Assembly: GCA_030765065.1 (NCBI GenBank)
Contig: CM060981.1
Coordinates: forward strand, 230,895,152-230,959,151
Source: Deroplatys truncata
Taxonomy: Eukaryota > Arthropoda > Insecta > Mantodea > Mantidae
Length of the DNA stretch: 64,000 nucleotides
Direction of reading: 5' to 3'
How positions within the stretch are numbered: position 1 is the first letter of the stretch; each line of letters opens with the position of its first letter. Below are positions 4,740-64,000 of the stretch, piece by piece. The position numbers and the translations under genes were made by a program. Under the pieces are notes generated by a model. The model did no database searches and was not told the origin of the DNA. It worked only from the letters and a program-made list of their open reading frames with translations.

Positions 4740-6330
4740 GTATGACCAATTTACAAAGAAGGTTCAAATACAATTGTTAGTAATTACAGACTGACGATAT
4801 TAACTTCTGTATGTAGCAAAGAATATGAGAAAATACTTATAATTAAAATAAAGTTTTTTTAAAATTAATAATATCTTTAATCACTTTCAACATGGATTTA
4901 GGAATAAATTATCAACTAACACAGTGGTAGCAGAATGTACATAAATTGTTGGAATTGAAAGACGTCCATAATAACACAGCAGGAATATACTTAGATCTCT
5001 CTCAAGCTTTTGACTCTGTATCCCTTGATCACCTAATCTCAAAATTAGAATATTATGTTTTTACAGGACAAATCAGTAAGTTATTAACAACATACCATAA
5101 AAACTGTGTATAATGTACAGAAATAAACTGAAAAAAAGGTGACACTGCATGCACAATAAAATCAGAGTATAACTTAGTAAAATCTGGGGTGTCACAAGGA
5201 TCAGTGATAGGATCTACACTTTTTGCTTTATATAAATAATTTACCTGAACCAAAAAATAGTAAGGTGACACCTTATGCGGACGATACAACTATCGTATGT
5301 TGGGGTGAAAACAGAGAAAACTTGGAAGAAAAAATGACAATTGACTGTTATCACAATATTTTTTAAATAATGGACTGAAGTTAATTAAAAAAAAAATTAC
5401 ATTTCAAAACGATAATCTAAATATAAACAAATAATATTCCTTTAGAACAGATAAGAAAAATTAAATTTTTGGACATTCATATAGAAGAAACTCTAACCTA
5501 CAGCACGTACATAGAAATGGTTTGTAGAAAAAAAATGAACTCGGGATTGCGCCTATTGAGGCAATTGGCAAAATATAGGGACACTAATATTCTTAGAACA
5601 ATATATTATGGCCTTATTTACCCACATTTTACATATGGTATTGAAATTTTGCGGGTAACAAGTACAACTAATACGAGCAGGCTATTAAAAATACAAAAAA
5701 GTGCATAAGAAGTATATACAACCTACGGTCTTGATAATCCTTTAGGGAAACATTTGTAACACAAAACATCCTAACCGTATTGACTAATTTTGAAGATTTA
5801 GAAGCTAGTAACAGTGATGTGTCATAATTTAAAATAAAGAGAGTTGAGGGTTGTTACACTACATCACTGTAATATTCTTACTTGAACGCATTTCGGGAGA
5901 CGGTTAAACGAGGATTAGATGAGGACATGCTGACGATGAGAACAAACCGTCTCCCGAAACGCGTTCAAGTAAGAATATTATAGTGATGTAGTGTAACAAC
6001 CCTCAACTCTCTTTATTTTAAATCCTAACCGTAGTTTCATTATATGTGTTCAAAATTATTATACTTGTTAAAGATAAAAGGCATTTTAACATGCTCAATA
6101 AAAACTGTCATAAATATGATACAAGGAGAGCTAATGATCACCATAGGGTGAGCACAAACAAAACTCAAAACTAAAAATGTTCCGTATAAAATAGGAGCAA
6201 TATTGCATAATAAATTACCATAAGTAATTAAGGATACCATAGATTCAAAATTTAAACCTGCACTAAAATCATTCCTAATAGAGAAATGCTTGTATGATAT
6301 CACTGAATTATAATGCACACGCAGGCAGGT
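4740..6330 (+). pseudogene. Non-LTR retrotransposon reverse transcriptase remnant
   Basis: Several frames together encode a reverse transcriptase with no long open frame. In order I read the AFDSV motif (LDLSQAFDSVSLDHL, near 4,990), the GVSQGS motif (SGVSQGSVIGSTLFALYINN, near 5,185), and the catalytic YADD (VTPYADDTT, near 5,275). The longest open piece is 5,469-5,708, a C-terminal connection region (RLLRQLAKYRDTNILRTIYY). The C-terminal tail continues after an insert, from 6,034 (ILTVVSLYVF) to about 6,330. This architecture suits a CR1/Jockey-like LINE; the clade is an inference. The 5' part is missing, as is usual for truncated LINE copies. Confidence 0.75.
5780..6021. mobile_element. 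Hairpin insert flanked by 12-bp direct repeats
   Basis: The LINE C-terminal region is interrupted here. The 12-mer atcctaaccgta occurs at 5,768-5,779 and again at 6,022-6,033, exactly at the edges. Most of the insert (5,827-6,023) is a near-perfect inverted repeat: arms 5,827-5,905 and 5,945-6,023, 79 bp each with two mismatches, around a 39-base loop. The first 47 bases of the insert lie outside the hairpin. No coding capacity is visible. The 12-bp duplication is longer than is typical for the common cut-and-paste families. Confidence 0.7.
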
Positions 6331-7235: not shown

Positions 7236-7456
7236 CAGGGATGGGCAAAAGTAGGTATACAGTAGATATACGATTATTATACATTTAATACGAGTTGCTG
7301 ACAGAAGCGAGAGGAGTAAGACGTGCCGAACGCGTGCTCGGCAAAACAGCAAACTGGGATTGCAGTTAGAAGTATATAGAGCCAGAATAGGCCTATTTAA
7401 TTCAGCAAGATGTAATGTGGGGGAAAATGTTCGGGAGAACAGATTAGAAGGACGGC

Positions 7457-8431
7457 ATGGTATGTGTTGGTGTTATGGTGCTACTGATAATTGGCGGAGT
7501 AGAGTTAAACCCGGGACCGGATATGGGGCAAATTATGGGAATGCTGAAGTGCATCGCGGAGGAAATGACTAATTTTAAAGGAATGGAAAGGAGAATTGAA
7601 GAGAAGTTGACAAAACAATTAGAGGAGATAAAATCGGTCTGGAGAAATTTTGAATACGAGGTGAACAAAGAATTCATAGAATGTAATACAAGATTAACAA
7701 ATCTGGAGAAAGCAGAGGAAAGGAGCAGAAAAAGGAACTTGATAATATTTGGAGTAGAGGAAACAAGAGAGAAACGAGTTTGGGAACAAGTAGAGGAAAT
7801 ATGTCAAAATAAACTGGGAATAAAGTTGGGAGGCTGGGAAATAATTGACACCTTCAGAGTTGGGAAAAGAGGCTCGAACCCAAGACCGATAATCGTGAAG
7901 TTAGCAATGGTGAAAATAAAATGGACAATGTTATCTAATGCCAAAAAGTTAAAAGGGACAAGAATATTCCTTGAAAATGATTACGGGAAGAAAGAGAGAG
8001 AAGTAAGAAGCTTGTTGTTAAAAGAAATGAGAAGTGCAAGAGCTAGAGGCGACAAAGCATACATGAGAGGACTGGATTTGTGGATAAATGATAGAAAACA
8101 GGATATTCATCAGCTGAATTGGAGAAGGTCACCTTCACCGGGGAATTCAACACGTGTTGAAAACACGGGCAGGCGGAAGCGAGCGGATAGCATGGTATAT
8201 GGAGAGGAAAGAAGGGGAGGAACACGACAAACGTCATCGGGCAGTGGAGAGGAATGGAGGGGAGGAGTGCAGGAAACGTCATCAAGCGGAGAGAAATGGA
8301 GGGGAGGAGTGCAGCAAACGTCATCAGTCAAACAAGTAACACCGGAAAGTCAGCTGATTGAAGAATCACGTAGAATGGCCTTGGGAGCAGCTTCGGGGAT
8401 TGAATCTGGAAGGATACTGCGCTCAGCATAA
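7457..8431 (+). CDS. LINE ORF1 protein with 2A-like N-terminus
   Basis: This 324-residue open frame is the longest in the window. The start is fixed by an in-frame stop at 7,445-7,447. Residues 7-12 are hydrophobic and lead into GGVELNPGP at residues 13-21, a 2A-like ribosome-skipping motif with Gly where Asp is usual. Residues about 30-90 are charged and heptad-like, consistent with a coiled coil. An RRM-like core follows (RKRNLIIFGVEE, about 92-103) and then a basic C-terminal domain (FRVGKRGSNPRPIIVKLA onward). This order is typical of LINE ORF1 nucleic-acid chaperones, which coat the element RNA. Near residues 250-293 a module of the type WRGGVQxTSS repeats three times. ORF2 begins about 150 bp downstream. 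Confidence 0.85.
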   Translation: MVCVGVMVLLIIGGVELNPGPDMGQIMGMLKCIAEEMTNFKGMERRIEEKLTKQLEEIKSVWRNFEYEVNKEFIECNTRLTNLEKAEERSRKRNLIIFGVEETREKRVWEQVEEICQNKLGIKLGGWEIIDTFRVGKRGSNPRPIIVKLAMVKIKWTMLSNAKKLKGTRIFLENDYGKKEREVRSLLLKEMRSARARGDKAYMRGLDLWINDRKQDIHQLNWRRSPSPGNSTRVENTGRRKRADSMVYGEERRGGTRQTSSGSGEEWRGGVQETSSSGEKWRGGVQQTSSVKQVTPESQLIEESRRMALGAASGIESGRILRSA

Positions 8432-8577
8432 TTTCATCGCCAGGGGGAAGCATCTTGCAGGTGGAAGATGGAGCAGAGGGGAACGAACCTTTGGGCAGGC
8501 CAAGACAGACTAGGAGCAGGGCAAAACTGCAAGAATTTAGGTTTGAGAGAAAGGGATCTGTATAGGAAAAGGCATTA

Positions 8578-9552
8578 AGGGTGTTAGCATGCAATATACA
8601 AGGGCTGTTTGAAAAGTTAAAACATGGGGAAATAATGGAGATCTTAAAATTAGGTGATGTGATAGGAGTGATAGAGACATGGGTAGCAAAGGACATTCCA
8701 GTGGATGTGACAGATTTTTATTTTTATGGTAAAGCTGGGAAAAAAAAGAAAGAGGTCGTGCATCAGGTGGATTAGGGTTATTTGTTAGGAAGGCCTTGCA
8801 AGTTAAAGTGAAAGTGTGTAGTGAAAGAGGGAATAATTCAGTTTTGCAGTGTGTTTTAAAAGGGATGGGGGAGAAGCAAAATGTGTGTGTTGCAGTGGTG
8901 TATAACCCCCCCCCCCAAGTGCCTCGGAATTTTATAATCCCAATTTATTTAATTTGCTAAGACAAGATATGGAAGAATTATCAAATAGATACTTAAACAA
9001 TTGTTTTATCATATTGGGGGACTTTAATGCAAGGGTAGGGGAAAGTAAAATAAATGTAATGTATGTTGAGTATGAGTTAAGAGGGGAAGAGAATGAGATA
9101 GTAGGAAGGAGGAGTAAAGTCAAAGTTTTGAACTGTGAAGGTAAGAAGTTAATAGATTTTTGTGAGGAGCTCAACTTGATGATGTGTAATGGGGTGAAGG
9201 GGAAAGATGCCATGGGGAAATTTACCTTTGTGAATGAGAATGGTCAGAGTGTGGTAGACTATATGATATATTCAGCAGATTTGGACTCATACATCATGGA
9301 TTTTGAAGTGTTGAATTTAGTTTGTTCAAGTAATCATTTTCCAATAAGGGCAAAATTCCAAAGTACATATAAGGGAAGCTGCAAAGCAAGGCAACAAGAA
9401 GGAATTAAAATTTAAAGATATAAATGGAGGGAGGAGGAAGCAGAAGTATTTGTGAAGATATAGGGGGTATAAGGGAACCAAATGTAGATGAGATGGTGAA
9501 AGAAAACAGAATTGAAGAAGTTGTATTAAAATTAGAAATGATATTTGATGCA
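8578..9552 (+). pseudogene. LINE ORF2, AP-endonuclease domain
   Basis: The apurinic-type endonuclease domain that nicks target DNA for target-primed reverse transcription is readable in three frames. It starts with VLACNIQGLFEKLKHGEIME and an IETWV motif. It then breaks at an A run near 8,745 (shifting to KERGRASGGLGLFVRKAL) and again at a C run near 8,908-8,917. The last open piece, 8,954-9,415, contains GDFNARVG, SVVDYMIYS and SNHFP, the metal-binding and histidine motifs of the family; the last usually reads SDHFP, so here Asp is Asn. The frame stops at 9,413 and resumes in another frame (KWREEEAEVF) until the LTR-like insert at 9,559. Confidence 0.85.
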
Positions 9553-9558
9553 GTAATA

Positions 9559-10682
9559 TGTATCACAAATTACTTAAATGTAAATAATGGTTGTAATATG
9601 AATATGCATTTTTATGTGACATTGATTTCAGATGTTTATTAATTGTAATTATTATTGGGAAATAAGTTTATATGGCTTTACTGAAACTGTCAATAATAGC
9701 GCAATAATGCAGCGAGGGGGGTGAGCTGTTTATCATTATTGGAAACAAGGAAGTTACGTAATGTTGACGCGTTTTCGGTAGAAACTTCTGGAATATTTTC
9801 TCCCTAAAAGCAATATGTATTCGTGGTTTTCATTGGATATTAAAATAGACGCTAATGTTGGCGCGTTTTATTAGCCAATAGTAATTCATTTATAATCTTT
9901 AGGCGTATCTGGACGAAGGAGTATAAATAAGCCAAGTCAGAGGTAGATCGCGGGCAGTTCATCAAAATTCTTTGTGCAATACACGTCGTCTTAAGTTCGT
10001 CAGTTCGTCAAAATATTTGTATGAGATACGTCGGCTATAGATTCACAAGTTACGAAAATCTAAAGTATTATAAAGTTAATTATACACAAAGTTGAAGTAC
10101 GTGAATTAAAAGTGATCAGTAAGAAGTATTATAACAGTTTCAGTTTGGCGAGTATCCAGATCAATATGTAAAAGTGATAGTGAACGTGTTCGACAATAAA
10201 AATTATAAAACAAATTTCTTCATCAGTGTAATTTTTGGATAAAAGATTCCTTTCCGCTTCACAACCTGTATAGAGACACATGTTCGACCCAAGATAAGAT
10301 AATAGCTAGCCGGAGGACATTTGAAATGAAATCAAACAAAAAAGCTAACACTGATGCAAATTGCTAACACAAGATGGAGCTACGAACCTAACAAAGAATG
10401 ACGTCACAAGATGGCAACGCGTGAAGTAAACACACATACATAAACATCACAAGCATCAACATTATAAGTAAATACCGCATCAAATTGGCTCCCATACGTG
10501 GGGCAGTTAAAAATTATGTAACCAAACAAAACAAAAGCAGCACAATATTAGATCTTCAAGTTCTAATACCTTACGTAAAGACACATTATGTAACCAAGAA
10601 TGCTATCGCAAATTGTCTACCACAACGTGGGGCTACAATAATGTTCACAAATAACAAAAACATAAATACCGCATCATATTGA
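9559..10682. mobile_element. LTR-like insertion inside the LINE
   Basis: LINE coding sequence stops near 9,550 and resumes near 10,689. The junctions carry a short direct repeat (aatatg at 9,555-9,560 and 10,683-10,688). The insert has promoter-like LTR features on the plus strand: a TATA box (tataaata, 9,922-9,929) about 30 bp before an initiator-like cagttc at 9,955, and an AATAAA-type signal near 10,195. At about 10,485 a tggctcccatacgtggggc stretch resembles an insect retroelement primer-binding site, preceded by ataccgcatca. The same ataccgcatca ends the insert. I infer an LTR plus a scrap of internal sequence; the family is not identified and there is no pol gene. Confidence 0.5.
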
Positions 10683-10688
10683 AATATG

Positions 10689-12900
10689 CAGGTTCAAGAA
10701 TGAAAATGAAAGAGGATTGGGTCAATAAGGAGGATGGATGGTATGATGAGGAATGTAGGGTGGCGAAACAAAGAGTTTTAAGGGAACTGAGAAAATGAAG
10801 GCAAACGGGAGATGAAAAGGAAAGAGAGGATTATATGGTTGAAAGGTGGAGGTACAAAAGTCTGTGGGAAGTAAAGAGGAGGGCATGGGGGCAGAAAATG
10901 GGTAAAAAATTGCATGAGGCAGCAGCACCTGCTAATGATTGTAAAACAATTTGGTCTTTAGTCAGGAGTATGTATAAGGCAAGAGTAAGAGAGAATAGCA
11001 TAGGTGCTAATGAATGGCTTAATTATTTAAAAAATCTTTTGGGAGCAGAGCAGCAAAAGAAGCAAACTATAGGGATAGTGGCAAATTGTGACTATATTGA
11101 GCAATTAGATAGTAGGATAGAAATAGGGGAAGTAAGAGATCAAATTACAAGACTAAAAAGAAACAAAGCAAGCGATATTGATGGTATACCAGATGACTTC
11201 TGGAAAGCATGGGGTCCAGACGAGAATAGATTGGAGATGCTAGTTAGGATACTAAATTCAATTTTTGAAGAGGGTATTGTACCTAGGAGTTGGAAAACGG
11301 CAATTGTGGTGCCAATATTCAAGAACAAAGGAGATGTGAATAACCCAGCAAACTATAGGGATATTAGTTTGTTAGCAGTGTTAAGAAAAATTTACACTGG
11401 AGTTCTGGCAGAAAGAGTGCAAATTTGGGCAGAGGAGCAGGGTAAGTTATCAGATTTCCAAGCAGGCTTTAGAAGAAATAAGAGAGTAATAGACAACATT
11501 TTTGTGATATCCACAATGGTTAGTAAATACTTAGCTAACAAAAGCGGAAGGTTGTACATGTTATTTGTGGACTTTGAAAAAGCGTTTGATATAATTAATA
11601 TGGAAGCTTTATGGGCTAAATTGAGCAAGATAGGAACGAGTAATAGGTTCATAGAAGCATTACAAAGGATATATGCAAAGAATGATTTTTGTATAAGGGT
11701 CTCAAATAATATAGTGACAAATGCTATTCCAAATAATATAAGGATGTAAGTTAAGTGCTATATTATTTAACTTATTCATTGATGATATTTTAGAGGCAAT
11801 TAAGATAGAAAATGGGCATCTTCCAATAATTGGAAATAAAGAAATACCGGGTTTGTTATTTGCGGATGATTTAGTTGTGGGATCAATAACTAAGGTCGGG
11901 TTAACTAAAGCAATCAGAGCAATAGAAAAGTTCTGTAATAAGTGGAGTCTCAGAATAAACACAAGGAAAACCAAAATAATGGTGTTTAAAAAGGGGAACA
12001 AGTTAAGGAAAGATGAAACATGATGGTGGCAAAGAAATGAAATCAAGGTGGTTAGGAAAATTGATTATTTAGGAGTAAGACTAAATAGTAATGGGAGATG
12101 GAATGAGCAAAAGAAAATGATACTAGCAAAAGGAAAACTGGCAATGAAAGTTATTAGAGCTTGCCTAGATAAAGTACCAGAGATACAAATAAAATAGCTG
12201 GACAGAATATATAGAGCAGTAGTAGAGGCTGGAATACTATATGGAGCTGAGATTTGGGGTTTAGAGGGAGGGTGGGAAAATGTAAACAAGGTTCACAGAA
12301 GTTTTTGTAAATTAATTTTGGGTCTACCAAGGGCTTCACCTAATGGTGTTGCCCAAATAGAGCTAGGGAGGTTTGGTAGCAAAGCAAAAATTGTGGAAAG
12401 TGCATTAAAATATTGGTGTAGAATTAAGGAATTGGAAAATAATAATATGTTAAAGCAGTGCTTAGAAGTGTAGTTAAAGCTCAACAAAGAGGATACTTGG
12501 TGTAAGTATATAGAAGGAATCTTGAATGAAATAGAGAATATTTGGAGAGAGGGATAGGCACTGGAGAAAGGGTTTTGGAGAGGGGTAAATTTGAGAATTG
12601 AAGATATTGAAAGACAAGAAATTTTAGGTAGCTTTAATTCCAAATCTTCTTTGTGTATATATGCAGACTTAAAAACGGTGTGGGAAAGAGAAAAATATGC
12701 TGATATATGTGACAGATCAGCACGAGAAGGCGTTGCATGGGCAAGGACAGGAGTGGTGATGCTAAAAGGCTTAGGGGGAAGTGAGATCCAGGAAAGTGTT
12801 TTTTATGTACTAGAAAGTATAATAATTATTGGCATTTAATTTTAGAATGTGAAGGAACTAAGGATTCGAGGGAAATGTAGGAATAAGGAGTAAGAAGAAA
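10689..12900 (+). pseudogene. LINE ORF2, reverse transcriptase and C-terminal region
   Basis: An open stretch at 10,835-11,749 encodes the fingers and palm start: KNKGDVNNPANYRDISLLAV (RT motif 1-2), QAGFRRNKRVIDNIF, and FVDFEKAFDIIN (first catalytic Asp). A frameshift near 11,745 then moves to GCKLSAILFNLFIDDI and the catalytic FADD at 11,859-11,870 (GLLFADDLVVG). The thumb and connection follow (KIDYLGVRLNSNGRW) with stops at about 12,020, 12,196, 12,471 and 12,555. A last open piece at 12,591-12,839 precedes a decayed cysteine/histidine motif near 12,800-12,860. There is no RNase H domain. It completes the APE-RT polyprotein begun at 8,578. Confidence 0.85.
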
Positions 12901-13700: not shown

Positions 13701-13971
13701 CACTCTTAAGCAAATCAAACATCACACAGATGCCATGAATAAACTTTCACCTTTGAGATGCTCAATATCAACTATCTTTACAGCATGAACATAAAGCAGT
13801 GACTGAAGCACAGCTGATAAAGATAACCTTGAACATGTCATCCAATGCCATTTGTGCATTGGAAAAGCACTGAGGTCACTGCAGTTCAACCTGCTATGCA
13901 TATAGCTGGTCTGTGGCCTCACCTTAAAATGTCCACACAGTATTATGGGAGGACAATGTAACGAGTATATT

Positions 13972-14815
13972 ACTTTCTCTACTACGTATAGTAAGTAGGG
14001 GAAGTATTGCATTCCACCCAAAAATTCGATACTGAGATTTCACCGGAAATACATGTTTTGAGACCCCCTGAATCCAAAAAAAGCATTTTTGGAAACATGT
14101 CCGTGTGTGTGTGTGTGTGGGTGTGTGAACAGCATAACTCAGAAACGAACAGTCGGATAAACACCAAACTTGGTATTTAGGTTCAGTATCTTCCAGAGAT
14201 GCGACACGAAGGTTTTCAAGAAAATCCCCCTACCCCAGACTACCCTTTACATGGAACATTTTTCGAAAATTTTAATTTTATCAAAAACGGCTCTAACGAT
14301 TTTGATTAAAATATCATATGTTTAAGATATTTTCATGACAAATAAAATGTATATCTTGAATTTTCTGGGAATGTCTCCAAAAGTATTCTTCATTGTGAAC
14401 GATTTTTTCATAACTGGTAAACCATAAGAGATAGACAAAATTTTACTACACAAAAAATGTAGATCGCGTTAAAATACACAATTTATGTCATATACATTTC
14501 TTTTGTTGAGTAAACCGTTTGCGAGATATTGCTTGTTATTCCCTTAAATTTTCCAATAATACTTTTTCTCAAATTCGTTATTCATTTTTTTGTCTTGGAC
14601 ATGCAAAGAGAATGGAATGCGCCACATAGCAACCAGCGTTAAAATATTTGGCTATCGCTTAAAACCTACCATATTCTCCTTGCATTTACAAGAAAATTAT
14701 CAATAAGATTCTCGATATCTCGATTAACATGAAGCATATGGAGAATAAGCGTTTGTAAAAATAGTTTGTACAAGAGTAGAGAAAGTCATGTGAGTGTAAC
14801 ACATCAGATTTTTTT
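13972..14815 (-). repeat. Repeat R copy 2
   Basis: A well-preserved copy in reverse orientation. On the plus strand it begins actttctctactacgtatag, has a GT microsatellite at about 14,101-14,126, and the landmark ggtttttcaagaaaatccccc region near 14,212. It ends with catgtgagtgtaacacatca and a T run near 14,815. The copies at 61.98 and 62.60 kb are very similar over hundreds of bases, so this subfamily is fairly young. No protein was recognised. Confidence 0.75.
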
Positions 14816-15149
14816 TAGTTAGATTGAGCTCCTGTTTACTAAGCTTGAATTGTGTGAGACACTCTAGCCATAGAACTTCCAAACAAGTGAATGGGACAAA
14901 AGGAATCAACTGAATGGCCACCAAGTTCTCTGGATCTTACTCCTATGAATTTCTTTCTCAGGAATGTTCTTAAATATAAGGTTTTTGCGAGAACACTTTT
15001 ACTGTTGATGAGACAATTCAATTCATTAGGAAGACATGCCAAGAAAAAGTAGTAAAATGGGCTTGAGTATCAAATCTAGACTACAGCAGTGTGTAAATGT
15101 GGAAGGCTAACAGCTTGAATATTCACAAGAGAATATTCTAACATGTTAC

Positions 15150-32839: not shown

Positions 32840-33830
32840 TTAAGTGAATGTCAGTCATTGTCTTGTAGAATATATATTGTGACTGTCCAATTTTCACTGC
32901 CACTGTTTTGATGTGATCTAGTTCAACTATTCACTATCATGGAAAGATAGAATCAGACAACTGAAAAATTCAATCCCATAGCCGGGATTTGAACCATGGA
33001 TCTCCCGGTCTCTGTCCGGTTGCTCTGACCACCGAGCTACCATGGCAACATGCTGGCACGACATTAAATTCTGTAACTGATTCACACTTTTTCCCGGTAA
33101 ATCACAAGATCTCAAATTGTATTTAGATGACATATCCCAATCGCGACTTAATGTTGTAAGTACTTGGCTACATAGTTTCAACCAGTTGGAGAATTTAATG
33201 TCGTGCCGACATGTTGCCAGCTAGCTCAGTGGTCAGAGCAACCGGATGGAGACTGGGAGATCTGTGGTTCAAATTCTGGCTCTGGCACTAAATTTTTCAG
33301 TCGTCTGATTCTACCTTTCCAACCTTGTCCAACACACGGCTTGTGTGGAAGAACAATTAATTCTATTCACTTAGTCTTCATTATCACTTCACTTTCTTTG
33401 TGATCTAGTGGTGTAATGAAATATGCACAGTGTAATCTCTTCTTCCAGACGGTTTACTCACAGTCAAACACATGACTTCTCCAATATCTTGCAGAAGCAG
33501 CACTCACTGCACGTCATAGCAATCATCACAAACTCATTTGGAGAACAGTACTTGATGTCACCTCAGAAATGCACTCACTAACTGATTGACTCAACTGACT
33601 AATCTGCAAACCTGCTGGATTATACAGCCTGTGGAAGCTTCCACAGAACATTCTAGATTGTTCTGAACTCAGTTCTGGAGATGGGGGAAAGAAACTTCCA
33701 GAAGATTCTGGTTATCTGATGATAGTGCTTCCTCTATTTATGCTGGGCAAGAGCACTACTTATCTTTGATAATCTCTGACTGCTCAACATAGATATTCTG
33801 ATAACCTTGGGACATAGCTGCTGCATCACA
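32840..33830 (-). mobile_element. LTR retroelement remnant 1 (LTR plus leader stub)
   Basis: 33,400-33,830 is homologous, with many differences, to 43,600-43,987. Shared text includes aaacacatgacttctccaat/aaacacaagacttcttcaat, gattctggttatctgatgat/gattctggttatctgctgat and ataaccttggg. The right edge ends tcaca in both, the complement of a TG-type LTR start, so the element reads on the minus strand. 32,905-32,930 and 33,364-33,400 match the sequence just left of the second copy (atctagttcaact, ttcattatcacttcact), showing that the SINE composite at 32,936-33,363 landed inside it. Confidence 0.5.
32936..33363 (+). mobile_element. Head-to-head SINE composite, locus 1
   Basis: Two tRNA-derived units face outward. 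The left reads on the minus strand (A box within tagctcggtggtcagagc, B box ggttcaaatcc, 3' end truncated). The right reads on the plus strand (A box tagctcagtggtcagagc, B box ggttcaaattc) and has a full tail: cagtcgtctgattctacctt, an acacacgg stem and gaacaattaatt. Between their heads lies a spacer of about 130 bp, and both sides share the ggcacgacattaaattct edge. The 9-mer ctattcact flanks the whole (32,927-32,935 and 33,363-33,371), the length expected of LINE-driven insertion. The upstream end is truncated. Confidence 0.7.
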
Positions 33831-33840
33831 ATTTGTATTA

Positions 33841-35125
33841 CGGAGGGTCGCCCCACTTAAGCTTGGACGATTTTGCTTATGTTTTTTTATGGCGAGATTC
33901 CCTTTCACCATCACCTATTGTGTTCAATGTGATTTCCACAGGCTTTAACCATGGCTCTGCAGTGCAATTTCCATTGAAGCGGGCTGCATCTAAGAACAGG
34001 AAGGGGGATGTTAGCCCGATGCTCCTGGAAGACTTTTCAGAATGCTTCAATTGTGGTGGGATGCTGAGAAGCAAGGCGCTGTTTCAGCAGACCAAATCCA
34101 CAAAAATCCATTGGCGAGGCATCTGGTGACTTTACAGGGATCCTTTTAAATGGTATGACATTGACAACCATTTCCATAGCTTTACAGTGGTAGTAATGCT
34201 GGGAAGACCAAGAGGTGTGACTGGATGCTTTATCCATGTGGATATAAACATTTGAGGCATCCTCACCATAGAACCGACGAATCTCTTCATAAAAAATTGG
34301 GTCCATAACATTCCTTTGATAGTAGGCTGCATTAACTTTTACATTGTTGGCAACTCTGTGAATGCGAGTTTGCCCCGAGAGCAAAAGCCTGCAACCACCA
34401 CGAATCCCTTGGAAAACTTTTCCTTGTTCTCCCGAATAAAGTTGGAGCGCCCCTTTTGGCCCACTTCATGGAAATAAATGACTTGGGGTTTTTTTTTGTG
34501 TCACCTAGATAAACCCATGCTTCATCTAAAGATACCACCCATTGCCACTTTTATAGAGTTTTCTTGCATTGGTGAAGCGTTCTCTGATGTGCTGCTCTTT
34601 CAAGGCGTGTCCATGTGCTTTATGTCGCCATTCTAGACCCAAATTGCTGTGTGTTATCTGATAGGCAGTCCCTTTGGATATTCCAATGCGGCTGGAAATG
34701 CTTCTTTGGGTTGGTGGGTTTTCTTGAGCCACTGTTGCACTCACCTTGGCTACTACAACTTAAGGTCGTATTGGTTGTGGCCTTTTTCTTGCTAGTTTTT
34801 TTGCACACTGAGCCTCAGGTGGGAATCCATTTTTATGCAGCTGTGTTATATGCCCCACATACGAGTCACTTATAGTAAGACCTTTTTGTTTGCACCTTTC
34901 CACTATCATTGAATGGCAGTAACTGGCATCGGAAAGCCCAACAATGTACCCCTGCCACAAGTCAGCGATTGTTGAAGCCATTACGAATAAACTTTGCCTC
35001 AGACTGGCCTAGCAGACAGCTGGCACTCACAGTGAGCTGATGCAATAATAAGCATAAGCAGTTTGACCAAGACAGAGTGGGAGTGTGATTCAAAGTCGTC
35101 CAAGCTTAAGTCAGGCAACCCGCCG
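33841..35125 (-). mobile_element. DD41D (rosa-like) mariner transposon
   Basis: Terminal inverted repeats of about 37 bp: left cggagggtcgccccacttaa and right, reverse complemented, cggcgggttgcctgacttaa, both continuing gcttggacga.tttg. TA flanks both ends (33,839-33,840 and 35,126-35,127). The 1,285-bp length is that of a full element. The transposase is on the minus strand and only mildly broken. Confidence 0.9.
34037..34981 (-). pseudogene. DD41D transposase pseudogene
   Basis: Four minus-strand pieces in order. 34,981-34,760 starts MASTIADLWQGYIVGLSDAS (first DNA-binding helix-turn-helix) and ends with a stop after RKRPQPIRP. 34,744-34,526 has the second DNA-binding part (RSISSRIGISKGTAYQITHS). 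34,538-34,332 has the first catalytic Asp in VSLDEAWVYL. 34,384-34,037 has the second in IHMDKASSHTS and the third in SPDASPMDFCGFGLL. I count exactly 41 residues between the second and third Asp, the signature of the rosa group. Three frame changes and a stop inactivate it. It would cut and paste the element at TA sites. Confidence 0.85.
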
Positions 35126-35127
35126 TA

Positions 35128-35620
35128 TATACTTAGTATCTTATTTTCACGTTTCAGATTAAAGTTACCGTGACATTTTGTGACCTTAAAATCCATTTTA
35201 CTTAGCAGAAAATGGGAAATTAATCCTGTTTCAACTGCATTGAAAGCATCATCAGAACCAAAGCTTTTTCAGAATTGATGGAAGAATTGTCATTTTCCAG
35301 CTTTCAATGTTTTTGTGTGTTACAGTTTAATTATCTGGGGCAGCAGATTCATGCTGCATACATTTATAAACTAAGTTATGTTCATTCCTGATCCTTTCAA
35401 TCCAGCCATTGGACGTTTTAAAATCAAGTTGCATCTTTTTTTGCTAAATGTGCCACCTGAGCTTTTACTGTCTAACGTCATGTTTGAAGCTTGTACTTGT
35501 GTAAACCACTTTAATAAAACTGCTTCTAACTCTGAAAGCTGACTTTGGCAAATAAGTTTTCTTTTAGCACCTTTTCCTTCTTCAAATGCAGTTTCAGTCA
35601 GTTAATGCATACTAACAACA
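35128..35620. other. Unique AT-rich sequence
   Basis: No supportable gene or repeat boundary. Confidence 0.45.
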
Positions 35621-36030
35621 GTGCTATTCCCAAAAAATTCAAGATGCACATTTTATTTTTCAAGTAAATATTTGTAATATATGGTATTTTAATCAAAACC
35701 TTTAGAGCCATTTTTAAGAAATAAAAAAATTTAGAAAAGTTTTCCATGTAAAGGGTAGTTGGGGTGGAGGGATTTTCATGAAAATCTTCATGTCACATCT
35801 TTGTAAGATGCTGAACTTAAATACCAAGTTTGGTATTTATCCAACTTTTCCTTTGTGAGTTATGCTGTTCAGACACACACTTACACAGCCTTTTTCTAAA
35901 AATGCTTTTTTTAAATTTTGGATTCAAGGGTCCTCAAAACATACATTTTCATTGAAATCTCAATATTGACTTTTTGGGTGGAATGCAATACCTTCTCTAC
36001 ATGCTATGTACATGGTAGAGAAAGTAAAAA
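35620..36030 (+). repeat. Repeat R copy 3
   Basis: Plus-orientation copy with the family landmarks in order: caagatgcacattttattt, atatggtattttaatcaaaa, ccatgtaaagggtagttggg, cttgtaagatgctgaactta-like text, gagttatgctgttcagacac, cctttttctaaaaatgcttt, ggaatgcaata and the terminal gtagagaaagtaaaaa. The microsatellite slot holds only a short CA run. Confidence 0.7.
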
Positions 36031-36188
36031 TATACTAAATGTATGCATAACTGTTGAGTTGACATGGCATATATGCATTTTAGCAAGAATGATGCCATCT
36101 TTACAAGGCAGGTGTTTAATCGTTATTAATATGAAAGAAGAAAGCTAGAGTTTTATATCAGTCTAAAATCTTTAATTTGCACATTTAG

Positions 36189-36346
36189 CTTGCAGCATTT
36201 ACCACTGGTTTTCAATGACTCAGCAAAGGGCAAAAGCATTTTACAAGAAAAGACTTTTAAGTAATCTATACAAGGTGCCCTTGAAACAATTAATAGAACT
36301 CACATTCCAATTTGCCTTCGTAGCTATATTATGTCATTGTTTCCAG
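36189..36346 (+). CDS. Host gene exon C candidate (two possible readings)
   Basis: Two acceptors seven bases apart (atttag|c at 36,189 and gcttgcag|c at 36,196) both restore the split codon left by exon B. From 36,189 the reading is LQHLPLVFNDSAKGKSILQE followed by KTF, ending at a donor ttaa|gtaatc (36,260). From 36,196 it is IYHWFSMTQQRAKAFYKKRL and continues 50 codons to the donor ccag|gtaacc at 36,346, ending in phase 0. The first has the more protein-like composition; the second is longer and connects in phase to 36,546. I cannot decide between them without transcript data. Confidence 0.35.
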
Positions 36347-36545
36347 GTAACCTTTATTTTATTCATGCCAATAAGAGCTAATTATGCACAATTTTAACTA
36401 ATGTTATAACATGTTCATAATGTTAGGATTGTGTAAATTTTATCTCTTCTTGTAGCTCCTTATGAAAAAAAAAACCTATTTCCAAAATTGTGTTTTAAAG
36501 ATATTTTGCTTTTTTTTTATCTTTTTTTTTTAATTTCTGTTACAG

Positions 36546-36671
36546 CTACTTGCACCATTTGGATGCAAACGTTTTTATTGCTCCATTTTGAACTGCTACA
36601 TCCTCGTCGTTTCTTCAACAGACCGCACAAAGTGTGAACAGCTGATTTTCAAGTCTACATATTTTCTGTGA
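36546..36671 (+). CDS. Possible further exon with stop
   Basis: A strong pyrimidine tract (tttttttttaatttctgttacag) precedes 36,546. A phase-0 reading gives 41 codons (LLAPFGCKRFYCSILNCYIL and on) to a stop at 36,669-36,671. The alternative phase gives a 14-codon tail ending FIAPF. Either could be a last exon of the host gene. No poly-A signal was confirmed, so the support is mainly the acceptor. Confidence 0.22.
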   Translation, partial: LLAPFGCKRFYCSILNCYILVVSSTDRTKCEQLIFKSTYFL

Positions 36672-36679
36672 TAATGTTG

Positions 36680-37724
36680 CACTTTTGCATTGTTATTGAT
36701 GTTAATGGCATATCAGAGTGGCCTCTACCTGTGCAAGTTAATTTTCTGTTTTAATTTAACGGTATAATAAGGTTATACAAATGACAGTGTGCTACATAAC
36801 TAATCTAGAGACAATGTGTTTTATTCTTTGTGGTTCAGTGAGAACAGTACAAGATACTGTAAGCAGGTGCACAACTGAGAGTTATGTAACTATGGGTACA
36901 ATGATTAGCATAGAAAAGAATAACTCGCCTAAATGTTCAAAGATATTTCTAAAATAATAGCAAAACTTTAGGTTTGTGACTCGCCACAAGTGTGCATGAA
37001 GAAAAGGTTATTCTCAGATAGGATTTCATTTATTGGCTGTAAGGACAAAGTGTGTTGATAACCTTATTTGAATTACTAAAACTGCTCATCCACCACACTA
37101 CAAGTCCATGCTTATGCTTTCATTGTGAGACAAATGTACACAGCGTTTGCATATATTGTTCTACAAGCACACAAAGTTCACTCACAGTGTGTTGATTCAC
37201 TGTTCAGGTCAGTTATATACTTTAACAAATGGAACCTCATTGGACTTAAATCTAGTGAGTATCGAGGCCATACCAACTGTGGTGACCAGGGTCATTAAAG
37301 CACAGACTTGTGATTGGGAGGTCTCCAGCTCAAATGTCGCCAGGACCATCCTCCTCAACTGAAGTTTTTTCCATAACTGACAAATGCTGGAAACGTACTG
37401 TAATCATACATCTGGAACATTTCCTTCCCAAATTTCCTTTCTCCAATTATCATTTCATTTCATATATGAGTGTCCAAGATGCTTTTTAATTTAGGTAATG
37501 AAATAAGTGGATGTTGTTCTTGATTTAATTATAGTTTTGAGTGCATTTGTGTGCCATTATGTACACTAAATCTATTTAGCTAATCTTTGTTAAATTACCT
37601 GTGCTTTGTAGAAGCACTGGAGCAAAATGAATAACATCAACTGAATACCATAGCAGCAGTTATGATAAACATAAACATATCTGAATGACAGAGTCACAAT
37701 AGAGTTAAATGCTTAACTTCCTGA
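36680..37724. other. Unique AT-rich sequence
   Basis: No supportable gene. Near 37,280-37,335 a tRNA-like string (attaaagcacagacttgtga ... ccagctcaaatg) may be a decayed SINE head. Confidence 0.4.
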
Positions 37725-37737
37725 CCTAACAGTTCAA

Positions 37738-38290
37738 TGGAATTAATTGTTCTTTCACACAAGCCGTGTGTTGGACACGGCTGGAAAGGTAGAATCAGAT
37801 GACTGAAAAATTCAATGCCATAGCCGGGATTTGAACCACGGATCTCCTGGTCTCCGTCCAGTTGCTCTAATCACTGAGCTACCATGGCAACATGTCGGCA
37901 CGCCATTTCCATTAATTGACCTAATAGTGGTTGAAACTAAAAGCCCAGGACTTAAGTACTTACAAAGAATGTAAGTCGCCATTGGGGTATGACATCTTAA
38001 TACAATTTGAGATCTCCTTGTGGTTTACCGGGAAAAATGCGAGTAGCTGGAGAATTAATTCCATTAATTGACCTAATAGTGGTTGAAACTAAAAGCCCGG
38101 GACTTAAGTACTTACAAAGAATGTAAGTCGCCTTTGGGGTATGACATCGTAATACAATTTGAGATCTCCTTGTGGTTTTACCAGGAAAAATGCGAGTCAG
38201 CTGGAGAACTAATGGCATGCCGGCATGTTGCCATGGTAGCTCAGTGGTTAGAGCAACCGGACGGAGACCAGGAGATCCGTGGTTCAAATC
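37738..38290 (-). mobile_element. Head-to-head SINE composite, locus 2
   Basis: This has the same architecture as 32,936-33,363. The left unit reads on the minus strand with A box tagctcagtgattagagc, B box ggttcaaatcc and a full tail ending in gaacaattaattcca. The right unit reads on the plus strand and stops within its B box at 38,290. The spacer holds two tandem copies of the 152-bp unit (starting at 37,909 and 38,061, with ccattaattgacc at each start). The 13-mer cctaacagttcaa flanks everything (37,725-37,737 and 38,291-38,303). Relative to the intact tail, the spacer polarity is the same as at locus 1. Confidence 0.75.
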
Positions 38291-38303
38291 CCTAACAGTT
38301 CAA

Positions 38304-41425: not shown

Positions 41426-42105
41426 GTATTCACCTTTTTATATGAATTCTTTGCATAGCACATTGATACTGAATACATCAGTAAGTCATATTATTGTATA
41501 TAGAATATAATACTAATTATATCATATCTCTAAGAGTAAGTACATCAACAAATCATACATAGTACTATATACAAAATGCTAATTAAATGCATACATTGGG
41601 TATCAATATTAATGTTGGTCAGCAATTAAAATGACTAAGTTAATAATGATTAAAATACATGATAATGAAATGACAATATGAGTGAGTATACAAGACTATT
41701 CAAATTAATATATACATTATAACACCTACACAAATGGATTTTTATTAAATTTTGACTATCCATCAATTGTGTAAGAGCATTGCTCCTACAATGAAAGCCT
41801 TTACTTTTAATTTAAACACATTATACTTCTCTGTAATTTTAATATCAGTGAAGTTAGTTCATTAGGGTAACATCCTCAAAAGACAAACCAGAAAATTGAG
41901 CATATAGTTTTATTGCACATGAATAATGTCAAAGAAAGCAATTTAATAGCATCTTGTTCCCATACAATACAACTTTTAAAAAATCTGATTTGTTGCATTC
42001 TTATGACTTTTTTTACTCATCTCTACAAATCATCTTATAAAAGCTTATTATTCTATCTGTTTCTTGTTAAATCAGATAAACTTTCCATTCACATTTGCAC
42101 ATTTC
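41426..42105. other. Unique AT-rich sequence
   Basis: No supportable feature. Confidence 0.45.
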
Positions 42106-42109
42106 ATTG

Positions 42110-42659
42110 TAGGATACAGTAGGTGAAGCAGTAGTCAGATTTTTAAAGAGCGTAAAGCTATGTAATGACCTTGAAATTCCATACTCTTTTCATGGCTACA
42201 AGAAGAAGAAAGAAAAAAAAAACAAATAGTCACTTTTCAGTTGAGAAAGTTATAAGTATTTGAAAATACAAACAATAACAAGGAATATCTCGGAAATTAT
42301 TTGACATAAATTGAATGTTTTAATGAGCTCTGCATTTTTTGTGTAGTAAGATTTTGTCTATTTTTCATGGTTTGCCAATTACACAAAAATCATTCAGAAT
42401 GAAGAGGACTTCACAGACTATTTCCAGAAAACTCAGGATATACATTTTGTTTGTTTTGCAGATATCTTAAATATATGGTATTTTAATAAAAATCATTAGA
42501 GGCATTTTTGAGAAGCTAAAAAATAACACAAATTTTCCATGTAAAGATTAGTTTGGAATGAGGGAATTTTTTTTGAAAATCTTTGTCACATCCTTGGAAG
42601 ATGCTGAACTTAAATACCAAGTTTGGCATTTAACCTGTTTTTGAGTTACGCTGTTCACA

Positions 42660-42694
<35 letters not shown>

Positions 42695-42830
42695 GATCTT
42701 TTTCTAAAAATGCTTTTTTTGGATTCAGGTAGTCTCAAAACATGTATTTTCGGTGAAATATGGTATGAAATTTTTTGGTGGAATGCAATACTGTTACTAC
42801 TTACTCTAGGTAAGTAGAAGGAAAAAACAA
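42110..42830 (+). repeat. Repeat R copy 4, longest plus-oriented copy
   Basis: It carries the left block (ggatacagtaggtgaagcag, gaaattccatactc) shared with 2.76 kb. It then carries the central block (ggaatatctcggaaatta, gtagtaagattttgtctatt) matching the reverse complement of 14.4-14.55 kb, then the shared right half with gttacgctgttcacag. A (CA)n microsatellite of about 17 units at 42,660-42,693 occupies the family's CA/GT slot. The plus-strand frame 42,623-42,817 (LSYAVHRHT then MLFLDSG) corresponds to minus-strand frames in copies 5 and 6. Confidence 0.7.
42660..42693. repeat. (CA)n microsatellite in repeat R
   Basis: About 17 CA units, located at the same internal position as the GT runs of the reverse-oriented copies. 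Confidence 0.9.
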
Positions 42831-43440
42831 CATTGCAATATGCAGCTCAACAAAAGTAAAAAAAAGTTTGATTCAACAGAATGTACCGCAATGTAGCTTG
42901 ATGGTTGCAATGAAAGGGGAAAACTCCTCTCCTGTTGCAAATATTGCAATAACTGATCTGTAATGCAAGAGATGTTGCTGAGCAATCTTCTGTTTTAGCA
43001 TAATCCATTTTGAAATAAATAAATGTTTGGCTGTGTATAAGTCGCATATATTTCTGAATGCCTAATTCAGCAAAAACCAAAAGAAAATTTAGGTAGCCAA
43101 AACAATTGCTAGTGAGCATGCAGTAAAGTTTCACACTTTCACATATGAAGTGACACTTGACAGAAGTCCAGAAGTAAAATGCAAAGCCGAATTCTTACCA
43201 ATTGCATTGTTGTCAGTTGTTCACTTATGAATGAGGGAGACCCATGTCAAACTCCTGACTTCTTTCACCAAGCAACTGGTTAATTATGATCGCAGATTTC
43301 CACACCTCCCAGTATGTTGGATAGACAACGTAAATTTGATGTAATTCATAAGACCCATTCACAAACTTGGTACAGCCTAAACGTTGTTCTTGCACATACT
43401 GCAAGATTGGTGAGAGAGATGTCTGTTTTTGACAGTATAC
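42831..43440. other. Unique sequence
   Basis: No supportable gene. A 95-codon minus-strand frame at 42,847-43,134 lacks splice context and family resemblance. Confidence 0.4.
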
Positions 43441-61830: not shown

Positions 61831-61977
61831 AGATACATACTCGTATAACACATAGGATGACGTAAGCATTTACAGAAGCCATTGACATGGAAACTGAGGC
61901 CGATACAAAACTTCTGAGATTAGATCTGGATTCGGAGACGAATTATCTTCCAGAAACAGCGTGTTTTGTTTGTTTTT

Positions 61978-62601
61978 ACTTTCTCTACTACGTATAGTAA
62001 GTAGGGGAAGTATTGTATTCCACCCAAAAATTCGATACCGAGATTTCACCGGAAATATATGTTTTGAGACCCCCTGAATGCAAAAAGAGCATTTTTGGAA
62101 ACATGTCCGTGTGTGTGTCTGTCTGTGTGTGTGTCTGTGTGTCTGTGAACAGCATAACTCAGAAACGAACAGTGGGATAAACACCAAACTTGGTATTTAG
62201 GTTCAGTATCTTCCAGAGATGCGACACGAAGGTTTTCAAGAAAATCCCCCCAACCCAGACTACCCTTTACATGGAGCATTTTTCGAAAATTTTAATTTTC
62301 TCAAAAACGGCTCTAACGATTTTGTTTAAACTATCATATGTTTAAGATATTGTCATGACAAATAAAATGTATATCTCGAATTTTCTGGCAATGTCTCCAA
62401 AAGTGTTCTTCATTATGAACGACTTTTTCATAACTGGTAAACCATAAGAGATAGACAAAAGTTTACTACACGAAAAATGTAGATCGCGTTAAAATACACA
62501 ATTTATGTCATATACATTTCTTTTGTTGAGTGAACCGTTTGCGAGATATTGCTTGTTGTTACCTTAAATTTTCCAATACTTATAATTTTTCTCAAATTCG
62601 T
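61978..62601 (-). repeat. Repeat R copy 5, truncated
   Basis: The plus text starts actttctctactacgtatag and follows copy 2 closely, with a GT/CTGT microsatellite at 62,108-62,150, up to ctcaaattcgttattcattt near 62,600. There copy 6 begins afresh with actttctctactacgtatag. The missing right part is the tail block seen at 14,590-14,815. Confidence 0.8.
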
Positions 62602-63710
62602 TATTCATTTTTACTTTCTCTACTACGTATAGTAAGTAGGGGAAGTATTGTATTCCACCCAAAATTTCGATACCGAGATTTCACCGGAAATACATGTTTT
62701 GAGACTCACTGAATCCAAAAAAAGCATTTTTGGAAACATGTCCGTGTGTGTCTGTCTGTGTGTCTGTGTGTCTGTGAACAGCATAACTCAAAAACGAAGA
62801 GTCGGATAAACACCAAACTTGGTATTTAGGTTCAGTATCTTTCAGAGATGCGACACGAAGGTTTTCAAGAAAATCCCCCCACCCCAGACTACCCTTTACA
62901 TGGAACATTTTTCGAAAATTTTAATTTTCTCAAAAACGGCTCTAACGATTTGGATTAAAATATCATATGTTTAAGATATTGTCATGACAAATAAAATGTA
63001 TATCTCGAATTTTCTGGGAATGTCTCCAAAAGTATTCTTCATTATGAACGACTTTTTCATAACTGGTAAACCATAAGAGATAGACAAAATTTTACTACAC
63101 GAAAAATGTAGATCGCGTTAAAATACACAATTTATGTCATATACATTTCTTTTGTTGAGTGAACCGTTTGCGAGATATTGCTTGTTATTCCCTTAAATTT
63201 TCCAATACTTATACTTTTTCTCAAATTCGTTATTCATTTTTTTGTCCTGGACATGCAAAAAGAATGGAATGCGCCACATAGCAACCAGCGTTAAAATATT
63301 TGACTATCGCTTAAAACCTACCATATTCCCCTTGCAGCTACAAGAAAATTATCAATAAGATTGACATCTTGATATCTCCATTAACATGAAGCATATGGAG
63401 AATAAGCGTTTGTAAAAATAGTGTGTACAAGAGTAGAGAAAGTCATGTGAGTGTAACACATCAGATTTTTTTATGTCCTGGACATGCAAAGAGAATGGAA
63501 TGCGCCACATAGCAACCAGCGTTAAAATATTTGACTATCGCTTAAAACTTACCATATTCCCCTTGCATCTACAAGAAAATTATCAATAAGATTGACATCT
63601 CGATATCTCGATTAACATGAAGCATATGGAGATTAAGCGTTTGTAAAAATAGTTTGTACAAGAGTAGAGAAAGTCATGTGAGTGTAACACATCAGAATTT
63701 TTTTTTGTTT
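62602..63710 (-). repeat. Repeat R copy 6 with duplicated tail
   Basis: A complete copy abuts copy 5 in the same orientation. Its last 231-bp block, from tgtcctggacatgc (63,243) to the catgtgagtgtaacacatca plus T run, is present twice in tandem (second unit from 63,474 to about 63,710). Each block ends in a T run. The minus-strand frame 62,681-62,908 parallels those of copies 4 and 5. Confidence 0.8.
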
Positions 63711-64000
63711 TGTTGTAGACCAGTGTAATCAGTGCCAGGAATTGTTCAACATTGAGATCGTTGGATCCCATTGAGTACGGCAAGATGCCATGGATATGCT
63801 GTTCCCCAGATTTCGCAAGCATAAGTAACGAGATGTACAGAAGTTTTGTTTTCAAAGGTATAAAACTTCTGAAGACAGGATATAGTGCCATGAACCGTTA
63901 GATTTCTCTATAGGGTACAGATTGCAGGTGCCGTCTGTAGGTTATGCGACTGTCCAACAAGACTCCGAGACAGCATGCTGCTCTGCTGAAAGGAATGTGT
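63711..64000. other. Sequence at the window edge
   Basis: No supportable gene. A minus-strand open frame at 63,583-63,891 straddles the end of repeat R and has no recognised motif. Confidence 0.4.

Follow-up and report, generated by a model that had tools for sequence, protein, structure and literature searches.

Two loci in a 64,000-nucleotide (nt) stretch of the genome of the mantis Deroplatys truncata (assembly GCA_030765065.1, contig CM060981.1; the whole stretch is called the window here) carry parts of a tRNA-derived short interspersed nuclear element (SINE) in inverted arrangement. A preliminary description had taken them for a composite retroposon, in which two SINEs face outwards around a shared spacer and the whole is copied as a single RNA. 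We consider it very probable that both loci are instead independent insertions of a SINE with its units in tandem, and that they arose through twin priming, a form of target-primed reverse transcription. The composite is best read as not having been copied as a unit, with every inversion arising at its own insertion, because the inner junctions differ from copy to copy (37 distinct junctions among 38 copies with a single switch of orientation). Observed directly in the DNA copies are the structure of the unit, target-site duplications (TSDs) at the outer ends, two preferred outer edges, scattered inner junctions, and microhomology at both edges. The pattern first described is genuine but was misread as an element when it is best explained as an insertion product, and the interest that is left lies in the frequency of inversion and in the position of the second start.

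In the mechanism that we propose, the RNA of the family would be a run of 318-nt units, with both the unit and its tandem order taken from the DNA copies. One broken strand of the target would prime at the tail (u318-322, where u marks positions in the unit) and copy upstream to a variable point p, and the other would prime at u265-285, mostly at u279, with its copying likewise ending at a variable upstream point, r. The two complementary DNAs (cDNAs) would then be joined head to head, and the joined pieces would repeat sequence and mimic an inverted composite, owing either to the tandem order of the RNA or to an overlap of the cDNAs. Both DNA ends would prime on one multimeric RNA, and the enzymes would presumably be supplied by a long interspersed nuclear element (LINE).

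Unit structure and copies in the genome

The host genome (4.29 Gb, 818 contigs; the window is at C7:230895152-230959151) was searched with one spacer copy, which gave 2049 first-look candidates, 40 of them scored; the best of the other copies are 97-99% identical and are spread across many contigs. No SINE copy was found at E <=1e-3 in a 200-kb sample of contig C1, where other repeats of the window are present, and this is expected since the first-look count corresponds to about 2000 per 4.29 Gb, if it is near the truth. The presence of two copies within 5 kb of each other in the window may be fortuitous or may reflect a local preference.

Two sets of copies were compared. Set A (L023-L061) comprises every one of the 39 loci that the spacer search placed outside the window; they account for 40 places, since L024 has two. 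Set B (L062-L081) comes from a search with the tRNA part and the tail, which gave about 36 additional loci, the best 20 of them being used. The two loci of the window and two extra insertions found in the stretches (an inverted one in L056 and an old, direct one in L033) were added to these sets. The preliminary description had expected full-length copies found by their spacer to show inverted SINE pairs with duplications at the outer edges, and this layout does recur in Set A, with 22 inverted copies, but the other 17 are direct. Set B contains 15 inverted and 5 direct copies. Among the copies examined, inversion prevails, with 40 of 63 insertions inverted and 23 direct. The inverted ones comprise the 38 copies with one switch, one copy with several switches (L047, left out of edge and junction counts) and L050 (TSD of 14 bp), which the edge tables list as direct since filtering removed its 19-bp arm. 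L036, likewise listed as direct, extends past the end of its stretch and could be inverted further on.

One copy, L027, is a whole unit of 322 letters; the roughly 10 bp in front of it are, as judged by eye, part of the tail of a unit upstream. The overlap of neighbouring units gives a period of about 318 bp. The unit consists of the spacer (u1 to about u155), a tRNA-like part (u172-244, with a B box at u223), a short body, a 3' stem-loop, and the tail. TTTCC at u273-277 is followed by the stem-loop and by a tail ending AATTAATTCCA at u322. The Rfam tRNA model scores 51.5 bits in the window and 53.5 bits in L027, in keeping with a tRNA-like part that has RNA polymerase III boxes; ARAGORN found no tRNA gene. 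Besides tRNA, the Rfam matches (E <=1 in the window and E <=5 in the copies) were only MIR7533, MIR4371, mir-31, snoU18 and a CRISPR repeat, all below the gathering score.

Four copies (L026, L036, L046 and L064) are direct multimers, in which tail and spacer join at one constant place, and L064 has four units and a part of another within a single 11-bp TSD. The supposed linker common to two SINEs is the 5' part of the SINE unit, contiguous with the truncated arm, as seen in L027 and in the multimers L046 and L064. Its equal polarity at the two window loci follows from this contiguity. A snap-back of the first cDNA was also considered and was dropped once L027 showed the spacer to be inside the unit and not a linker. 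Pieces of u268-322 beside monomers, which might be read as terminal repeats, were taken as an effect of the scoring margin (about 50 bp), because the 5' edges of the fetched copies do not pile up there. Those of the direct-filed copies are scattered, with 2 of 23 at u164-165, near the start of the tRNA part.

One inverted copy contains an 87-bp piece of the spacer (u7-93) that is repeated in tandem at least 6.6 times (L072:778-1355), and this array is perhaps a small satellite arising within a SINE.

Edges and junctions of the inverted copies

Thirty-one of the 38 one-switch copies have the tail at one end and a position within u265-285 at the other, three have the tail and a position elsewhere, and four have one end off the stretch. 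All 34 copies with both edges visible have the tail at one outer edge and an internal position of the unit at the other. The second edge is within u265-285 in 33 of 36 cases and within u274-281 in 27 of 36, with its mode at u279 (binomial P 7e-36 against a uniform site), and the inner junctions (p, r) are scattered over the unit. Three copies have the second edge (q) and p within 12 nt of each other, as in classic 5' inversions (q/p of 279/291 in L025, 279/274 in L035, and 280/285 in L041).

Outer TSDs of at least 9 bp flank 25 of the 35 whole inverted copies (L047 included, L050 not), and 32 of 35 have at least 7 bp; the lengths go from 4 to 14 bp, with 32 of 35 within 7-14. Random placements reach 9 bp in 3.7% of 1500 trials, a figure inflated by simple repeats. 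The single arms have no TSD of at least 9 bp of their own, either on the left (0/34) or on the right (0/34). Each inverted pair looks in this respect like the result of one retroposition, as the preliminary description had it, but the copying of the pair as one RNA does not follow, given how the junctions vary. Direct-filed whole copies have a TSD of at least 9 bp in 7 of 23 cases (L050 and the old L033 copy included). Microhomology of at least 2 nt between the end of the TSD and the unit beyond the edge was found at 17 of 28 second edges and at 13 of 29 tail edges, and none of 2000 letter shuffles attains either count.

Among the alternatives, an unlikely one that nevertheless fares best involves two RNAs, the first with its end at the tail and the second processed or terminating near u279; each would be primed by one broken strand, and the preferred edge would be the 3' end of an RNA. 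It would account for the 4 of 23 whole direct-filed copies that end at u278-279 without a tail (among them L026, with a 13-bp TSD), which indicate that u279 alone can be the 3' edge of an insertion. However, in the 34 copies where both edges can be seen, the two are never both at the tail or both in u265-285, and the second edges are spread across u265-285, with a microhomology of 2-4 nt in 17 of 28. Cleavage predicts 5' edges just past u279, yet u280-305 contains only 2 of 23 in direct copies, 4 of 38 for p and 2 of 38 for r, and a search of three copies gave no match to a ribozyme family at E <=5.

The transcription of a SINE-spacer-inverted SINE composite from a master copy as one RNA, inserted with 5' truncation, seems to us less likely still. 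The two window loci are indeed alike in layout, spacer polarity and outer TSDs, and one inner junction is common to two copies (L071 and L075), but this is the only shared pair; moreover, 5' truncation should scatter the outer edge instead of concentrating it, and the spacer is also found in uninverted copies. Two independent SINE insertions that happen to be adjacent and in opposite orientation have next to no probability: nearby insertions do occur, and L056 has two of them about 310 bp apart, but the duplications sit at the outer ends and not at each arm, and the same layout recurs in most of the insertions. A DNA transposon of the foldback or miniature inverted-repeat type, its termini derived from a SINE, or an inversion at the DNA level after insertion, would fit the long inverted arms and their hairpin folding and is hardly credible either, given the variable length of the TSDs, the unlike ends of all 34 copies in which both can be seen, and the existence of direct copies with TSDs.

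Several points weigh against twin priming on a tandem RNA. Three inverted copies have their second edge elsewhere, at u134, at u141 and, in locus 2 of the window, at u234, and microhomology is absent at 7 of 28 second edges and at 6 of 29 tail edges. The junction common to L071 and L075 (u2/u143), which are at different sites, is perhaps a recurrent one, or perhaps a rare case of copying from an inverted source. The T5 run at u250, which follows the tRNA part and precedes the tail, bears on how a multimeric RNA could be made, and the tandem copies could also come from template jumping between monomer RNAs. Overlapping cDNAs and a tandem RNA copied at different units would leave the same trace in the DNA. 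In the predicted fold, the preferred second position, u279, is not in a loop but in paired sequence (u272-281) on the 5' side of the 3' stem-loop, which speaks somewhat against free annealing there. Finally, the inverted rate comes from loci picked by similarity (39 by the spacer, 20 by the tRNA part and tail) and not at random.

The proposed second start site and known systems

The motif TTCCA is present in the unit, on either strand, only at both ends and at u274-278, and it also ends the tail. A repeat of the priming motif inside the unit would account for the second edges of the inverted copies as well as for the direct ends at u278-279, and the second site may be used on account of this sole internal TTCCA. 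We tentatively suggest, as a possibility that we would not yet favour, that the SINE has a built-in second start, with TTCCA at u274-278 repeating the tail motif and both target ends being primed, one at each copy. The geometry of protein and RNA is an alternative basis for the choice of u279. If the built-in start were true, inverted, hairpin-forming insertions would be a regular product of the family, and the host would gain many loci potentially making long double-stranded RNA.

Twin priming, SINE multimers and dimeric insect SINEs are known. The twin priming, or 5' inversion, of human LINE-1 (L1) was reportedly described by Ostertag and Kazazian in 2001, and Twin of Culex pipiens is said to be a dimeric SINE with its two parts direct. 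Sbg9 of Blattella germanica is described as a dimer of Sbg1 and Sbg8. The SINE studied here resembles Sbg9 and Twin in being tRNA-derived and in having more than one SINE in the unit; an inverted arrangement is mentioned for neither of them in the text consulted. The Dip multimers of the Gobi jerboa and SINE-derived satellites (PMC10702118) are examples of tandem or multimeric SINEs, and Dip has its units in direct tandem, as here. Unlike those of Dip, the multimers here are inside single TSD-flanked insertions (as in L064) and inversion is common; the word "inverted" is absent from the main text of PMC10702118.

A close parallel is with human L1, whose 5' inversions are ascribed (PMC2912911, PMC12016303) to DNA ends that prime at the 3' end of the RNA and inside it, with microhomology, followed by joining of the cDNAs. 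As in those accounts, the tail is on the non-inverted piece, the 5' piece is inverted, TSDs are at the outer ends, and microhomology is seen at the inverted edge (PMC2912911, PMC12016303); the two cDNAs may also have sequence in common. The differences from L1 are a tandem SINE template (an RNA deduced from DNA copies), a nearly fixed second start, and 40 of 63 copies inverted in a sample selected by similarity. PMC12016303 puts inversion at 18.4% in germline L1, 21.9% in somatic L1, 0.02% in germline Alu and 0% in germline SVA, and the same source quotes 0.8% for somatic Alu and 9% for somatic SVA. In PMC2912911, inversion was seen in a single Alu and in 4 of 477 SVA, and short TSDs of L1 are associated with 5'-truncated copies and not with inverted ones. 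The scarcer TSDs of the direct copies here recall this pattern of L1 (PMC2912911).

Work on 5' inversion so far has dealt mainly with L1 and processed pseudogenes, and rates differ greatly between elements for reasons that PMC12016303 (2025) describes as unclear. No SINE family with a majority of inverted copies and a nearly fixed second start was found in the one open-licence library that the literature search covered. A SINE with more inverted than direct copies among those read, and with a second start confined to about 20 nt, offers many natural events for studying how a second priming site is chosen. It is also a warning for repeat annotation, as inverted "composite" families may be insertion products and not elements.

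The patterns tried had no exact match in viral and prokaryote collections and none in plasmids, and the phage collection gave only a 57-nt match to the tRNA-Ile region of a single phage, which is present there as two records.

The two window loci and neighbouring elements

The pieces of the two loci are given in the table. As the preliminary description had stated, tRNA-SINE parts are inverted around the spacer at both places, with arms 86% complementary at locus 1 (32940-33039 and 33222-33321) and 95% complementary at locus 2 (37826-37907 and 38211-38292), and with one spacer copy at the first and two tandem copies, 95% alike, at the second. It was also right that each locus has one intact tail opposite an incomplete unit, and that a direct repeat flanks the assembly and not each SINE. 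Locus 1 extends over 32940-33363 with a TSD of 9 bp and locus 2 over 37738-38292 with a TSD of 13 bp, and equally long matches turned up in 7 of 20000 and 1 of 20000 random placements within the window, respectively.

Table. Pieces of the two inverted loci, in window positions
Feature	Position	Strand	Basis
Locus 1, left TSD (CTATTCACT)	32927..32935	.	longest-match test
Locus 1, inverted cDNA piece, u278 down to u48 (antisense SINE and its own spacer)	32940..33165	-	unit mapping
Locus 1, non-inverted cDNA piece, u139-320 (spacer end, tRNA part, body, 3' stem-loop, tail)	33183..33363	+	unit mapping
Locus 1, right TSD (CTATTCACT)	33363..33371	.	longest-match test
Locus 2, left TSD (CCTAACAGTTCAA)	37725..37737	.	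longest-match test
Locus 2, non-inverted cDNA piece, u322 down to u153 (tail intact)	37738..37907	-	unit mapping
Locus 2, inverted piece, first spacer copy, u1-151 (remainder of that unit absent)	37907..38056	+	unit mapping
Locus 2, inverted piece, second unit, u1-234	38059..38292	+	unit mapping
Locus 2, right TSD (CCTAACAGTTCAA)	38291..38303	.	longest-match test

The outer edge of the inverted piece of locus 1 is at the preferred second site, and an extra ATCA (32936-32939) adjoins the TSD. For TSDs belonging to single arms, the longest match at the four window arms is 4 bp with a slack of 3 bp; with a slack of 12 bp, the T arm of locus 2 has an 8-bp match (chance 40/2000) that appears by eye to be the element's own ATTAATTG. 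The predicted RNA folds are long hairpins (z -23 for locus 1 and z -16 for locus 2), as the preliminary description had anticipated. The two loci are two of the three inverted repeats of at least 60 nt in the window (copies at most 2.5 kb apart), and every match to SINE or spacer in the window at E <=1e-3 falls within them. A phylogeny of the arms gave four locus splits, one arm split and no control split, a data set too small to decide.

The window contains other repeats as well. Between the two loci, at 33839-35127, an element with inverted ends of 37 nt has a transposase-like frame without a Pfam match, and it is presumably mariner-like. A non-LTR (long terminal repeat) retrotransposon at 7448-12800 has a first frame, followed by endonuclease and reverse transcriptase frames with breaks; the first frame contains GGVELNPGP, which we take to be a 2A-like motif. 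This element ends, by eye, in TCTA repeats, which differ from the SINE tail, and because of this ending it does not look like the partner of the SINE. A short foldback with a shape resembling that of miniature inverted-repeat transposable elements is found at 5827-6023 (arms of 79 nt, 97% complementary, loop of 39 nt), and the 200-kb sample has a single match to parts of it. A further repeat family at 13970-14821, 35618-36036, 41974-42832 and 61961-63714 reaches a match depth of up to 38-fold in that sample of C1, and its copies are nearly in tandem at the end of the window.

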